Source: Oryzomicrobium sp.
Lineage (GTDB): Bacteria; Pseudomonadota; Gammaproteobacteria; Burkholderiales; Rhodocyclaceae
Direction of reading: 5' to 3'
DNA: 64,000 nucleotides
Assembly (NCBI RefSeq): GCF_021287045.1
Contig: NZ_JAJTBG010000001.1
Coordinates: forward strand, 186,001-250,000
Shown: in pieces, positions 3,288 to 41,948 of the stretch
Layout: each line of letters opens with the position of its first letter
How positions within the stretch are numbered: the stretch's first letter is position 1
Made by a program: the position numbers and the translations under genes
Notes under the pieces: generated by a model
Databases searched by the model: none
Seen by the model: only the letters and a program-made list of their open reading frames with translations
What the model was told of the DNA's origin: nothing

Positions 3288-3571
3288 GCCGCGCCTCCGG
3301 GGGCGGGCAGGTCGCGCAGGGCGCCGGCTTCGAGCACCTGGATGCGCTGTTCCGCCTCGGCCAGCTGGCCCTGGCAGAGCTTGAGCAGCTCCATGCCGCG
3401 GCGATAGGCTTCGAGGGAGGCTTCGAGCGGCAGCTGGCCGCCTTCCATGCCCTGAACCAGGCGTTCCAGCTCGGCCAGGGCGTCCTCGAAGGTGGGCGCG
3501 CCGGAGGCGGAAGGCGCCGTGTCGCCGGCCGCTGGCGAGGCTTTCCGGGTGTGGGTGCCGGGTTGATCCAT
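3284..3571 (-). CDS. xseB: Exodeoxyribonuclease VII small subunit
   Basis: Small subunit of exonuclease VII, which binds XseA and degrades single-stranded DNA. It is 95 aa (E. coli 80). The core matches the family: FEDALAELERLVQGMEGG, then LPLEASLEAYRRGMEL, a helical hairpin of about 55 residues. The first 25 residues are Ala/Pro/Thr-rich and look like a poorly conserved tail. It is the first gene of the xseB-ispA-dxs unit and is divergent from the Rieske oxygenase gene at 3727; the 155-bp gap must hold both promoters. Confidence 0.95.
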   Translation of the reverse strand: MDQPGTHTRKASPAAGDTAPSASGAPTFEDALAELERLVQGMEGGQLPLEASLEAYRRGMELLKLCQGQLAEAEQRIQVLEAGALRDLPAPGGAA

Positions 3572-3616
3572 ATCAATGGGACAGGGGAAACCGGGAAACG
3601 TACCGTAAAAAAAGGC

Positions 3617-3726: not shown

Positions 3727-4839
3727 ATGACCGACATCGCTACCCGCGCACAACTTGCCCCGGCCGTTTCCCAACTGCCGGTGGATTGGTATTTCGACGA
3801 GAAGCTTTTCGAACTGGAGAAAAAGCTCATCTTCGATGCCGGTCCCGGGTACGTCGGCCATCAACTGATGGTGCCGGAAGCCGGCAACTACCGTTCCCTG
3901 GAATGGGCCGACCACGGCCGCATGCTGGTCAACAACGCCGACCAGGGCACCTGGCTGATGTCCAACATCTGCCGCCATCGCCAGGCGATCATGCTGCAAG
4001 GTTCGGGCACCCTCGATTCGACCATCGTCTGCCCGATCCACCGTTGGACCTACGACCGCCAGGGCGAATTGATCGGTGCGCCGCACTTTCCCGAAAACCC
4101 CTGCCTGAACCTGAACAAGGTGCGGTTGCAGAACTGGAACGGGCTGCTTTTCCAGGGCTCTCGCGACGTGGGCGCCGACCTGGCGGGCATGAAGGTGGCC
4201 GGTGAGTTCGACTTTTCCGGCTACAAGCTCGACCGGGTCGAATTGCACGAGTGCAACTACAACTGGAAGACCTTCATCGAGGTGTATCTGGAGGACTACC
4301 ACGTGGTCCCCTACCACCCGGGCCTGGGCAACTTCGTCACCTGCGACGACCTGACCTGGCAGTTCGGCGACTGGTACTCGGTGCAGAAGGTGGGCATCAC
4401 CTCCCTGCTCAAGGAAGGCTCTCCGGTGTACGGCCGCTGGCAGAAGGCGGTGCGCGACTTCTACGCCGGCCGGGGCGAAACCCCGCGCCAGGGCGCGGTG
4501 TGGCTGACCTACTTCCCCAACATCATGGTGGAGTGGTACCCCCACGTGCTGGTGGTGTCCCAGCTGATTCCCCAGGACGTGAACAAGACCCTCAACGTGG
4601 TGGAGTTCTACTACCCGGAGGAGATCGTCGATTTCGAGCGTGAGTTCATCGAGGCCGAGCAGGCCGCCTACATGGAAACCGCCATCGAGGATGATGACAT
4701 CGGCGAGCGCATGGACCGGGGCCGCTACGCCCTGATGAAGGAAGGGCGCAACGAAGTCGGCCCCTACCAGAGCCCGATGGAGGACGGCATGCAGCACTTC
4801 CACGAGTTCTACCGCCAGCTGATCGTTCCCCACCTGTAA
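3727..4839 (+). CDS. Rieske [2Fe-2S] aromatic-ring-hydroxylating oxygenase, alpha-subunit type
   Basis: Mononuclear non-haem iron oxygenase of the RHO alpha-subunit family, 370 aa. The Rieske cluster ligands are CRHRQ near residue 82 and CPIHRW near residue 102 (C-x-H and C-x2-H). The catalytic domain has EVYLEDYHVVPYHPGL near residue 190, giving the Asp and two His of the iron site. No beta-subunit, ferredoxin or reductase gene lies nearby, so electrons must come from elsewhere. The start is set by a GGAGG 7 bases upstream. The nearest remembered relatives are choline/carnitine-type single-component oxygenases, but the substrate cannot be named. Confidence 0.85.
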   Translation: MTDIATRAQLAPAVSQLPVDWYFDEKLFELEKKLIFDAGPGYVGHQLMVPEAGNYRSLEWADHGRMLVNNADQGTWLMSNICRHRQAIMLQGSGTLDSTIVCPIHRWTYDRQGELIGAPHFPENPCLNLNKVRLQNWNGLLFQGSRDVGADLAGMKVAGEFDFSGYKLDRVELHECNYNWKTFIEVYLEDYHVVPYHPGLGNFVTCDDLTWQFGDWYSVQKVGITSLLKEGSPVYGRWQKAVRDFYAGRGETPRQGAVWLTYFPNIMVEWYPHVLVVSQLIPQDVNKTLNVVEFYYPEEIVDFEREFIEAEQAAYMETAIEDDDIGERMDRGRYALMKEGRNEVGPYQSPMEDGMQHFHEFYRQLIVPHL

Positions 4840-27612: not shown

Positions 27613-27810
27613 ATGGAAAGCCTGTACCTGTTGATCCCCCTCTCCGTGCTCCTGGTGTTCCTCATTGCCCTGATCTTCTGGTGGTCGGTGAAGAGCGGCC
27701 AGTTTGAGGACCTGGAAGGGCCGGCCTACCGGATCCTGATGGATAAGGAGCCGGGGGAAGAGAGAGCCGCCAAGCCGGCTGCCGATTCGACATCGCCGCC
27801 AAAGGCGTGA
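27613..27810 (+). CDS. ccoS: cbb3 oxidase maturation protein CcoS
   Basis: A 65-aa single-pass membrane protein. MESLYLLIPLSVLLVFLIAL and IFWWSVKSGQFEDLEGPAYR are near-invariant in CcoS. It is needed for cofactor insertion into cbb3 oxidase. It follows ccoI by 12 bp; a 465-bp gap then holds a predicted small RNA before ccoN. Confidence 0.95.
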   Translation: MESLYLLIPLSVLLVFLIALIFWWSVKSGQFEDLEGPAYRILMDKEPGEERAAKPAADSTSPPKA

Positions 27811-27870: not shown

Positions 27871-27884
27871 TTGATCTGGGTCAA
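27871..27884 (+). promoter_or_regulatory. FNR box of the predicted small RNA
   Basis: TTGAT-CTGG-GTCAA matches 9 of 10 fixed bases of TTGATN4ATCAA. CATAAT (27907-27912) is a good -10, which puts the start near 27919. The box centre is then at -41.5, the ideal class II activator position. Confidence 0.8.
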
Positions 27885-27918
27885 AATCGAACTTGGGTAC
27901 GTCGGACATAATCCGTCC

Positions 27919-27995
27919 CAGATCGTTGCCTTCGTGGGGCGATCTGATTTGTTTCTCTGTTGGGGTTGGGGTGCGTGGAAACGCACCCTTTTTTT
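27919..27995 (+). ncRNA. Predicted FNR-activated small RNA, about 77 nt
   Basis: From the start predicted by the -10 at 27907-27912, the RNA begins directly with a hairpin (stem CAGATCG 27919-27925 with CGATCTG 27940-27946, inner TTCG-containing loop). A U-rich single-stranded linker of about 22 nt (ATTTGTTTCTCTGTTGGGG) follows, then a strong terminator with seven T's. This is the layout of Hfq-binding regulatory RNAs. No open reading frame with a ribosome site fits inside. FNR-dependent sRNAs are known elsewhere (E. coli FnrS, Neisseria AniS, Pseudomonas PhrS), but I do not recognise this sequence. The position between ccoS and ccoN suggests a role in the switch to low oxygen. Confidence 0.65.
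27969..27995 (+). terminator. Rho-independent terminator of the small RNA
   Basis: GGGTGCGT-GGAA-ACGCACCC (27969-27988) followed by seven T's. It lies 158 bp after ccoS and upstream of the ccoN promoter. Confidence 0.92.
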
Positions 27996-28104: not shown

Positions 28105-28139
28105 TTGACCCAGATCAATAGCAGGTTGACCTATGTCAA
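28105..28139 (+). promoter_or_regulatory. Two tandem FNR boxes in the ccoN promoter
   Basis: TTGAC-CCAG-ATCAA (28105-28118, 9/10) and TTGAC-CTAT-GTCAA (28126-28139, 8/10). Their centres are 21 bp apart, two helical turns. The downstream box is 41.5 bp before a start near 28174 if TAGCAT (28162-28167) is the -10; TAAAAT at 28157-28162 is an alternative. Confidence 0.85.
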
Positions 28140-28275: not shown

Positions 28276-29706
28276 ATGTCGGAAACGCAAACCACATACA
28301 ACTATAAGGTTGTACGGCAATTTGCCATCATGGCCGTCATCTGGGGCATCGTTGGTATGGCCGTCGGTGTCTTCATCGCGGCTCAGCTTGTCTGGCCCGA
28401 TTTGACGTACGGCATTCCTTGGCTGTCCTATGGCCGTCTGCGGCCGCTGCACACCAACGCGGTAATCTTCGCGTTCGGTGGCTCGGCTCTCTTCGCCACG
28501 TCTTACTACGTGGTTCAACGCACCAGCCACGTTCGCCTGTTCTCCGACGGCCTGGCCGCCTTCACCTTCTGGGGTTGGCAAGTGGTGATCCTGCTCGCCG
28601 CCGTCTCCCTGCCGCTGGGTTTCACCTCCGGTAAGGAATACGCCGAGCTGGAATGGCCGATCGACATCCTGATCACCCTGGTGTGGGTCGCCTACGCAGT
28701 GGTGTTCTTCGGCACCATCGCCAAGCGCACCATTTCCCACATCTACGTGGCCAACTGGTTCTACGGCGCCTTCATCATCGCCGTGGCCCTGCTGCACATC
28801 GTGAACTCTGCCGAGATTCCGGTGAGCCTGACCAAGTCCTACTCCGCCTACGCTGGCGTGCAGGATGCAATGGTGCAGTGGTGGTACGGCCACAACGCCG
28901 TGGGTTTCTTCCTGACCGCCGGTTTCCTGGGCATGATGTACTACTTCGTGCCGAAGCAAGCTGAACGTCCGGTGTATTCCTACCGTCTGTCGGTGGTGCA
29001 CTTCTGGGCCCTGATCTTCACCTACATGTGGGCGGGTCCCCACCACCTGCACTACACCGCGCTGCCCGACTGGACCCAGTCCGTTGGCATGATCTTCTCG
29101 CTGATTCTGCTGGCTCCCTCCTGGGGCGGCATGATCAACGGCATCATGACCCTGTCCGGCGCCTGGCATAAGCTGCGTGACGATCCGATCCTGAAGTTCC
29201 TCGTCACCTCCCTGTCCTTCTACGGCATGTCGACCTTCGAAGGCCCGATGATGTCCGTGAAGACGGTGAATGCCCTGTCCCACTACACCGACTGGACCGT
29301 CGGCCATGTGCACTCCGGTGCCCTGGGCTGGGTGGCCATGGTGTCCATCGGCTCCATCTACTACCTGATCCCCCGCATGTTCGGCCGCAAGGAAATGTTC
29401 AGCATCAAGCTGATCACCGTCCACTTCTGGCTGGCCACCATCGGCGTGGTGCTCTACATCGCTTCCCTGTGGATCTCCGGTGTGATGCAAGGCCTGATGT
29501 GGCGTGCGGTCAACGCCGACGGCACCCTGACCTACAGCTTCGTCGAAGCCGTGAAGAGCTCCTATCCGTTCTGGGCCATTCGCTTCATCGGCGGTCTGCT
29601 GTTCCTCGGCGGCATGTTCGTCATGCTCTTCAACGTGCTCAAGACGGCATCCGGCAACAAGGCAGTGGAAGCCCCGGTGCTGGCCCCGGCCGCTCACCAC
29701 GCCTGA
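28276..29706 (+). CDS. ccoN: cbb3-type cytochrome c oxidase subunit I
   Basis: Catalytic haem-copper subunit of the high-affinity cbb3 oxidase, 476 aa with about 12 transmembrane helices. Haem and CuB histidines are seen in [15 protein letters not shown] (near residue 58), [15 protein letters not shown] (near 205), [15 protein letters not shown] (near 253) and [15 protein letters not shown] (near 342). It reduces O2 in the inner membrane under micro-oxic conditions. It is the first gene of ccoNOQP behind two FNR boxes. Start [16 protein letters not shown] is typical. Confidence 0.98.
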
Positions 29707-41159: not shown

Positions 41160-41903
41160 TCAGACCGGAGTGTGGTTCATCAGGCGCTTCAGGCCCGGGA
41201 TGTCGAGGATGCGGATGTGCTTCTGCTGCACCGCGATCAGCCCTTCTTCCTGGAACTTGGAGAAGGAGCGGGAGACGGTTTCGAGCTTGAGGCCCAGGTA
41301 GCTGCCGATCTCCTCCCGGGTCATGCGCAGGTAGAACTCGGCGGGAGAATAGCCCCGGGCGACGAAGCGCTGCGACAGGTTGAGCAGGAAGGCTGCCAGG
41401 CGCTCCTCGGCGCGCATGGTGCCGAGCAGCATCATTACGCCGTGGTCGCGCACGATCTCCCGGCTCATCACCTTGTGGAAGTGGTTTTGCAAGGTCGGCA
41501 CCTGGCGCGACAGGCGCTCCAGATAGTCGAAGGGGATCAGGCAGACCTCGCTGTCTTCCAGGGCGATGGCGTTGCAGGAGTGGTTTTCGCTGCTGATGCC
41601 GTCCAACCCGAGCAGTTCGCCGGACATCTGGAAGCCGGTGACCTGGTCGCGGCCGTCCTCCATGATCACGTCGGTCTTGAAGAAGCCGCTGCGGATGGCG
41701 TAGAGGGCTTCGAAGGGCTGGCCGGCCCGGTAGAGCAGGTCGCCGCGCTTGACGCGCTTGCGGGTGGAGACGATTTCCTCGAGCTTGGCCATTTCCTGGG
41801 AATTCAGGCCGAGCGGCAGACACAACTCGCGCAGATTGCAGTTGGAACAGGCGGTCTTGATGACCGAAAGATTGACGGTTTTCAGAGCCCGGTTTTCGGA
41901 CAT
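41160..41903 (-). CDS. fnr: FNR-type oxygen-sensing transcription regulator
   Basis: Crp-family activator with an oxygen-labile [4Fe-4S] cluster, 247 aa. Cluster cysteines are in ACSNCNLRELC (residues 18-28) plus a fourth in SENHSCNAIAL near residue 110. The helix-turn-helix ends in GLKLETVSRSFSKFQ near residue 212; the E-SR recognition residues are those of FNR and predict TTGAT sites, which occur six times in this window. It is divergent from hemN, with a shared FNR box between them. Confidence 0.95.
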   Translation of the reverse strand: MSENRALKTVNLSVIKTACSNCNLRELCLPLGLNSQEMAKLEEIVSTRKRVKRGDLLYRAGQPFEALYAIRSGFFKTDVIMEDGRDQVTGFQMSGELLGLDGISSENHSCNAIALEDSEVCLIPFDYLERLSRQVPTLQNHFHKVMSREIVRDHGVMMLLGTMRAEERLAAFLLNLSQRFVARGYSPAEFYLRMTREEIGSYLGLKLETVSRSFSKFQEEGLIAVQQKHIRILDIPGLKRLMNHTPV

Positions 41904-41934: not shown

Positions 41935-41948
41935 TTGATCCAGGTCAA
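41935..41948. promoter_or_regulatory. FNR box between fnr and hemN
   Basis: TTGAT-CCAG-GTCAA, 9 of 10 fixed bases. For hemN a -10 of AATACT (41971-41976) would place it at -41.5. For fnr it lies only 31 bp before the start codon, which fits repression of fnr by its own product better than activation. Confidence 0.8.

Follow-up and report, generated by a model that had tools for sequence, protein, structure and literature searches.

The stretch at 27919-27995 (+) of the window, by which we mean the whole 64,000-nucleotide piece of Oryzomicrobium sp. DNA analysed here, is predicted to encode a trans-acting small RNA that is activated by FNR and uses its seed to block the translation of mRNAs for aerobic functions; we give this reading a probability of roughly 0.8. 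Sequence comparison supports placing it in a new family of putative FNR-activated trans-acting sRNAs, which would work like FnrS or AniS and scores under the Rfam threshold of every family, AniS and SorY included. The evidence consists of the sequence parts of the element, their conservation, the covariation of the terminator, the spacing of the promoter and the complementarity to mRNA start regions, together with the link of this complementarity to the presence of the RNA. Enterobacteria and Neisseria are known to have sRNAs under FNR control, FnrS and AniS respectively, and the Rhodocyclaceae include denitrifiers and the polyphosphate accumulators of wastewater plants. If the reading is true, a separate family of FNR sRNAs is added, in the Rhodocyclaceae. 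The finding predicts where the RNA starts, singles out its seed and names candidate targets, and it opens the question of how the logic of FNR, sRNA and sodB arose more than once.

The candidate unit, from the FNR box to the end of the terminator, spans 27871-27995 (+) between ccoS (27613-27810, +; NCBIfam TIGR00847 above cut-off) and ccoN (28276-29706, +; NCBIfam TIGR00780 above cut-off). The FNR box TTGATCTGGGTCAA (27871-27884, +) has one mismatch to TTGATNNNNATCAA, and the -10 hexamer CATAAT (27907-27912, +) lies 22 nt past it. The position of CATAAT sets the predicted +1 at about 27919, relative to which the box is centred at -41.5. The predicted 77 nt RNA opens with a 5' hairpin (27919-27946, +), as seen in its fold. 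The seed UCUCUGUUGGGGUU (27954-27967, +), recognized by its conservation across loci, adjoins the intrinsic terminator (27968-27995, +), which was located by a terminator scan and has the stem GGGGUGCGU (27968-27989) followed by seven T's. The first-pass annotation had described a box one mismatch from consensus, CATAAT, a box centre at -41.5, a hairpin from 27919 and a seven-T stem, and all of these are present at the positions that it gave. The likely activator is encoded in the same window: the fnr gene (41160-41903, -) matches NF008365, 'fumarate/nitrate reduction transcriptional regulator Fnr', with 258.3 bits against a cut-off of 228.

The limits of the RNA were taken from the promoter spacing, the terminator and the fold. 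The 77 nt sequence folds with -32.6 kcal/mol, compared with -19.85 ± 2.66 kcal/mol for 200 shuffles (z = -4.79), all of which were weaker. The terminator scan by itself was at chance level (two sites against 1.4 expected), and a simple sigma-70 scan did not have the sRNA promoter, in which the FNR box stands in place of a -35 element, in its list. It is by its conservation that the element rises above chance, both in the blastn matches in other genera and in the offset of the -10 hexamer after the FNR box. Small open reading frames cross the element, but the length and sequence of the region vary among the loci, and a protein-coding reading was rejected.

Blastn finds the element in other genera with E values as low as 6.9e-14. 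A search of 61 genomes (the source genome included) returned 30 loci, of which 28 carry the element (L001-L028); the other two (L029 and L030) are chance matches. ccoN adjoins the element in 27 of these 28 (none was found in L023), and ccoS likewise in 27; L005 is at a contig end, and in L009 ccoS lies about 1.2 kb away. The element is also present in 13 of 80 named ccoN loci, two of which duplicate the L005 and L007 stretches, and removal of these duplicates gives a set of 39 distinct loci. Carriers by name include Accumulibacter, Dechloromonas and Denitromonas records. When aligned, the 14 consecutive columns TCTCTGTTGGGGTT are identical in 39 of 39 distinct loci, although the full identity is partly a matter of selection, as the loci were gathered by similarity to a 17-base core with at most one change. 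The conserved part is what had been described as a U-rich linker, plus the terminator (27954-27995), with the sequence of the 5' hairpin lying outside it. The U-rich stretch is where it had been placed, but it is a conserved seed and not a mere linker.

A covariance model (R1) built from the 3' half of the element matches 139 of 150 genomes of the GTDB family at E ≤ 0.1. At E ≤ 1e-8 it matches 117 of the 150 genomes and, by row count, 54 of 68 genera, which leaves 14 genera without a strong match. Thirty R1 loci were fetched and all lie in the cco cluster (ccoN in 29; ccoS/ccoI only in L150); among 20 further loci, mainly the weakest matches, 18 have ccoN, one has only ccoS and one has neither, giving ccoN or ccoS beside the element in 49 of the 50 loci fetched. 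The 14-base seed is intact in 17 of the 20 further loci and GTTGGGG in all 20. The three altered seeds (G019, G139 and G121; L390, L391 and L392) belong to the three weakest R1 matches (38.8-43.2 bits), all with a ccoN context and an FNR box; the altered seed of G121, TCTTTGTTGGGGTT, keeps its pairing through G-U. Outside the family, an order-wide R1 search (250 genomes) yielded a cco context among the loci fetched only in two draft genomes, G320 (6% contamination) and G339. The match in G216, in the order but outside the family, has an E value of 1.4e-9 and, at 41.5 bits, scores close to the weakest family matches, yet it resembles a chance terminator and was rejected, as were the other loci printed. 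In a class-wide search the 273 other genomes gave no match above 32.4 bits. Judged by its sequence, the element is a conserved RNA family. In 12 ccoN loci without a strong R1 match the element is not visible by eye, and most of these have one FNR-like box. In one of the 12, L038, a weak R1 match (25.8 bits; CCTTTGGGGTTACGGGCG) lies upstream of ccoN (2816-2866) and is possibly a decayed or diverged copy. In L046, a Thauera phenolivorans record, ccoN follows what by eye is a tRNA-like stretch and the fetched locus has no R1 match; its ccoS neighbourhood may be rearranged.

The promoter parts recur with the seed. Of the 39 distinct loci, 38 have an FNR consensus box in the 200 nt before the seed, the exception being L009, and so do 19 of the 20 further loci. 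In 34 of these 38 loci a -10-like hexamer is found 21 or 22 nt past the box, a spacing that fits an FNR box centred at -40.5/-41.5; the other offsets (from 5 to 59) each occur at most twice. The predicted RNA is 68-112 nt long in 36 of the 38. A further FNR-like box (at most one mismatch) follows the seed at no more than 330 nt in 37 of the 39 loci (not in L015 or L023). Two such boxes past the terminator had been assigned to ccoN in the window, and both were found, TTGACCCAGATCAA at 28105-28118 (+) and TTGACCTATGTCAA at 28126-28139 (+). Because the upstream box with its -10 hexamer, the terminator and the further downstream FNR box recur, the element would be a unit that starts and ends independently, and ccoN is most likely driven by a separate promoter. 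The recurrence of these parts across genera likewise favours the original proposal of an FNR-activated small RNA that is separate from the ccoN transcript.

The same arrangement could be read as a conditional terminator: ccoN would have a long 5' leader with an attenuator in it, and a single transcript, driven by FNR, would end at 27995 or run on into ccoN. The element does lie upstream of ccoN on the same strand in the loci read, with a strong terminator between promoter and ccoN. The further FNR box past the terminator in 37 of 39 loci, at most 330 nt from the seed, argues against a single transcript, and the 5' part is free to vary in sequence and length, so that no common antiterminator pairing is apparent on a non-systematic look. 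Pairing of the seed with the start region of ccoN is poor (mean -12.0 and best -24.9 kcal/mol over 86 loci), while the conserved stretch matches the start regions of other genes. We consider an attenuator improbable.

The stems of the 5' hairpin and of the terminator had both been expected to be conserved in relatives. For the terminator this is the case: 98.0% of the cells in the stem are paired, both sides have changed at three of eight pairs, and none of 500 shuffles matches either the observed paired-cell share or the covariation score. Most relatives have a 5' hairpin too, but no conserved sequence for it: of 37 loci, 29 have a 5' part that folds better than shuffles at z below -1, and the mean z over all 37 is -2.33. 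The other two of the 39 loci were not counted, as one has no box and the 5' part of the other exceeds 100 nt. As modelled, the 5' stem is a recurrent structure. In the predicted fold the seed is partly open, with UGUU and UU free of pairing for the most part; CUC and GGG are often paired and may form a weak small hairpin. Judged by sequence, the element has the general marks of a trans-acting sRNA: a promoter of its own, a conserved seed and a U-tailed intrinsic terminator.

Candidate targets were sought with the complement of the 14-base seed, AACCCCAACAGAGA, allowing at most one mismatch in the 61 genomes. Away from the element there are 38 such sites (37 were read and one is at a contig end), compared with 24 for the reversed pattern and 18 for a same-composition control; the complement search is weak by itself. 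By an automatic rule, 17 of the 37 sites lie 2-35 nt upstream of the ATG of an open reading frame of at least 90 codons. The same placement is found for 13.7% of random positions, for 15 of 60 occurrences of any CAGAGA and for 6 of 18 of a same-composition pattern ending in CAGAGA. In view of these controls, the enrichment before start codons is only partly specific, and likeness to the Shine-Dalgarno sequence accounts for part of it. One of the 17 start-region sites (L180, in G005) is in a genome without a strong R1 match.

The genes after the sites encode an Fe/Mn superoxide dismutase (sodB-like), three DsrC-family proteins, isocitrate lyase, acyl-CoA dehydrogenase and a ferredoxin-NADP reductase-like protein; an enolase-superfamily gene follows one complement site in the source genome. 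The complementarity at isocitrate lyase was seen in a genus other than the source. Ten more stretches, picked from short blastn rows and a further search, were read, and five have a site before a start codon while the other five are without a convincing start region. Sites before a start codon are found at cydA in G027 (16 nt) and at azoreductase-like and DSBA-family genes in G021. The source genome has an 18-nt perfect complement 28 nt upstream of an acyl-CoA dehydrogenase gene and its sister species has one of 16 nt, although these two start regions are alike and are not independent. The site is absent from the orthologues in seven other genera (-19.1 to -24.8 kcal/mol; G032, with 93% identity, is included) and is kept within the genus only. 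The suggestion that the RNA could silence aerobic functions gains support from this predicted complementarity to the starts of sodB, cydA, isocitrate lyase and acyl-CoA dehydrogenase.

The tests on orthologues are stronger than the complement search. For 30 sodB start regions, the mean pairing energy is -21.5 kcal/mol, against -17.3 kcal/mol for shuffled seeds, and none of 500 shuffles did as well. Taking the best sodB of each genome (58 of the 61 genomes have one), pairing at or below -24 kcal/mol is found in 14 of the 48 that carry the RNA and in none of the 10 that lack it (Mann-Whitney p = 0.0045, ignoring relatedness and including the discovery genome, G023); the regions of the other 34 genomes with the RNA fall short of -24 kcal/mol. 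The p value is 0.0052 to 0.0095 if G019 is dropped or counted as lacking the RNA, or if G023 is dropped too, the value of 0.0095 being the one obtained when G023 is dropped and G019 is counted among the genomes without the RNA. As a yardstick, 11 of 48 sodB regions reach -25 kcal/mol or lower, compared with none of the 273 start regions read for ccoN, ccoS, ccoO and ccoP, a set that includes loci of other families. The predicted duplex with sodB of the source genome has -29.2 kcal/mol and covers CAACGGAGAAC, which is the Shine-Dalgarno region.

The start regions of 11 dsrC-like genes pair with a mean of -27.8 kcal/mol, against -18.5 kcal/mol with shuffled seeds, none of the 500 shuffles doing as well, whereas 19 dsrC paralogs give no pairing signal (122 of 500 shuffles as good). 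Three of the 11 came from the complement search; six of the other eight have z ≤ -1.9. L263 is among these six, with z = -3.5, yet it pairs with only -18.5 kcal/mol, and its genome is without a strong R1 match. L265 is without a site (z = -0.1) though its genome carries the RNA. The dsrC-like genes (L256-L266) form a group separate from the dsrC paralogs of the same genomes, and many have C-rich leaders. Overall, the targets differ genus by genus.

It could also be supposed that the element is a terminator with a conserved site for a protein or a G-rich structure, GGGGUUGGGG binding a fixed partner, and that there is no base-pairing RNA. The near-invariance of the seed stretch while the predicted mRNA partners vary speaks for such a site. 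The complementary starts nevertheless track the RNA, with a signal in the dsrC-like genes but not in the paralogs and with strong sodB pairing only in genomes that have the RNA; in addition, the seed cannot by itself form a four-run quadruplex, as it has just two runs of four G. We assign a fixed-partner site only a small chance.

For the trans-acting sRNA we propose the following mechanism, in which transcription, FNR dependence, chaperone binding and repression are all predicted. As oxygen drops, FNR (41160-41903) would bind the box at -41.5 and turn on the RNA alongside the ccoN operon, as a separate transcript. The RNA would stop at its own terminator, leaving a U tail, the usual handle for a chaperone. 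The stretch UCUCUGUUGGGGUU(GGGG) would then pair at or just upstream of the Shine-Dalgarno region, for example with CCCCAACAGAGA or CAACGGAGAAC, and would block ribosome binding and translation of mRNAs for aerobic functions, sodB being the most recurrent of those tested. Repression of sodB, the dsrC-like genes and acyl-CoA dehydrogenase would act via UCUCUGUUGGGG. A wider and more tentative reading, which we hold to be possible but doubtful, makes the RNA a family-wide low-oxygen hub of the Rhodocyclaceae that shuts down sodB, acyl-CoA dehydrogenases, the glyoxylate shunt and cydA of the competing bd oxidase while the cbb3 oxidase is being turned on, with the genera swapping targets around a nearly fixed seed. 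If this were true, the near-invariance of the seed would stem from many weak targets or from an additional fixed partner.

An Rfam scan of the window brings only a tRNA to its gathering score and no sRNA family; FnrS and S17/bdhR1 (RF02278) are not listed at the element among matches up to E = 10. The predicted logic resembles that of FnrS, an FNR-dependent sRNA of the Enterobacteriaceae, in that aerobic genes are repressed by an RNA which FNR turns on, and SodB is given as a target common to RyhB and FnrS in PMC8595263. FnrS differs in that there is no sequence match, and the element described here sits at the cco genes with its seed adjoining the terminator. AniS of Neisseria is induced in anoxia and is called FNR-controlled in the title of its report (PMC4423775). 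Its model has a 5' hairpin, a U-rich stretch, UUGGG and a terminator, as here, and the FNR box and -10 spacing of the present element would fit a putative FNR-controlled promoter; the GU repeat of AniS has no counterpart here. The logic would therefore be shared with FnrS and, in part, with AniS, the element being a member of neither by sequence.

The best sub-threshold Rfam match is to SorY (RF02651), an alphaproteobacterial singlet-oxygen sRNA of Rhodobacter, with UC-CUGUUGG--UU-GG before the terminator common to both. This resemblance is worth noting, and common descent is conceivable. PMC8307010 and PMC6238624 describe SorY as controlled by alternative sigma factors (RpoE/RpoH network) and as acting on the mRNA of a malate transporter. 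Full-length sub-threshold alignments to SorY occur in 8 of 14 loci with up to 38.6 bits, and the window gives 23.9 bits in a 111-base scan but is unlisted in a 431-base scan; AniS (RF02274) reaches 19.7 bits in the window and 26.4 bits in one of the 14 loci (L006). With gathering scores of 111 bits for SorY and 50 bits for AniS, and with the AniS model above cut-off in 0 of 61 genomes, without any match in the source genome and equally well matched in 5 of 14 control genomes, distant membership of either family is very unlikely.

Two other RNAs were compared by description. S17/bdhR1, a betaproteobacterial sRNA, is reported to have a 27-nt stretch that is 100% conserved across genera including Aromatoleum and to pair at ribosome-binding sites (PMC11722255, a preprint); its locus is beside coq7 in Bordetella, and the comparison here was with the RF02278 model and that description. 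By its description (PMC8632094), the HRC-8-4 motif of the Rhodobacterales resembles the present element in being a terminator-like RNA of the cco region; it differs in its alphaproteobacterial hosts and in its place, which is mostly between ccoP and ccoG. In the literature searched, which had partial coverage and few subscription papers, we found no description of an FNR sRNA in the Rhodocyclales or at ccoN. Two tandem CU-rich RNA-like elements on the minus strand of L163 (G187; about 1378-1608) consist of CUCCUCCCC-UGUU-GGGG with a terminator; they were considered as relatives of the ccoN RNA but are of another kind and were rejected, with weak matches to the CcsR1, ar14 and suhB models.

Other FNR-like boxes are present in the window. 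One, TTGATCCAGGTCAA at 41935-41948, lies between the divergent fnr (41160-41903, -) and hemN-like (from 42004, +) genes, and its position suggests possible self-control of fnr. A perfect FNR box, TTGATCCATATCAA, is found at 3563-3576, about 150 bp upstream of a 370-codon open reading frame (3727-4839, +), which we take to resemble a Rieske-type aromatic oxygenase.
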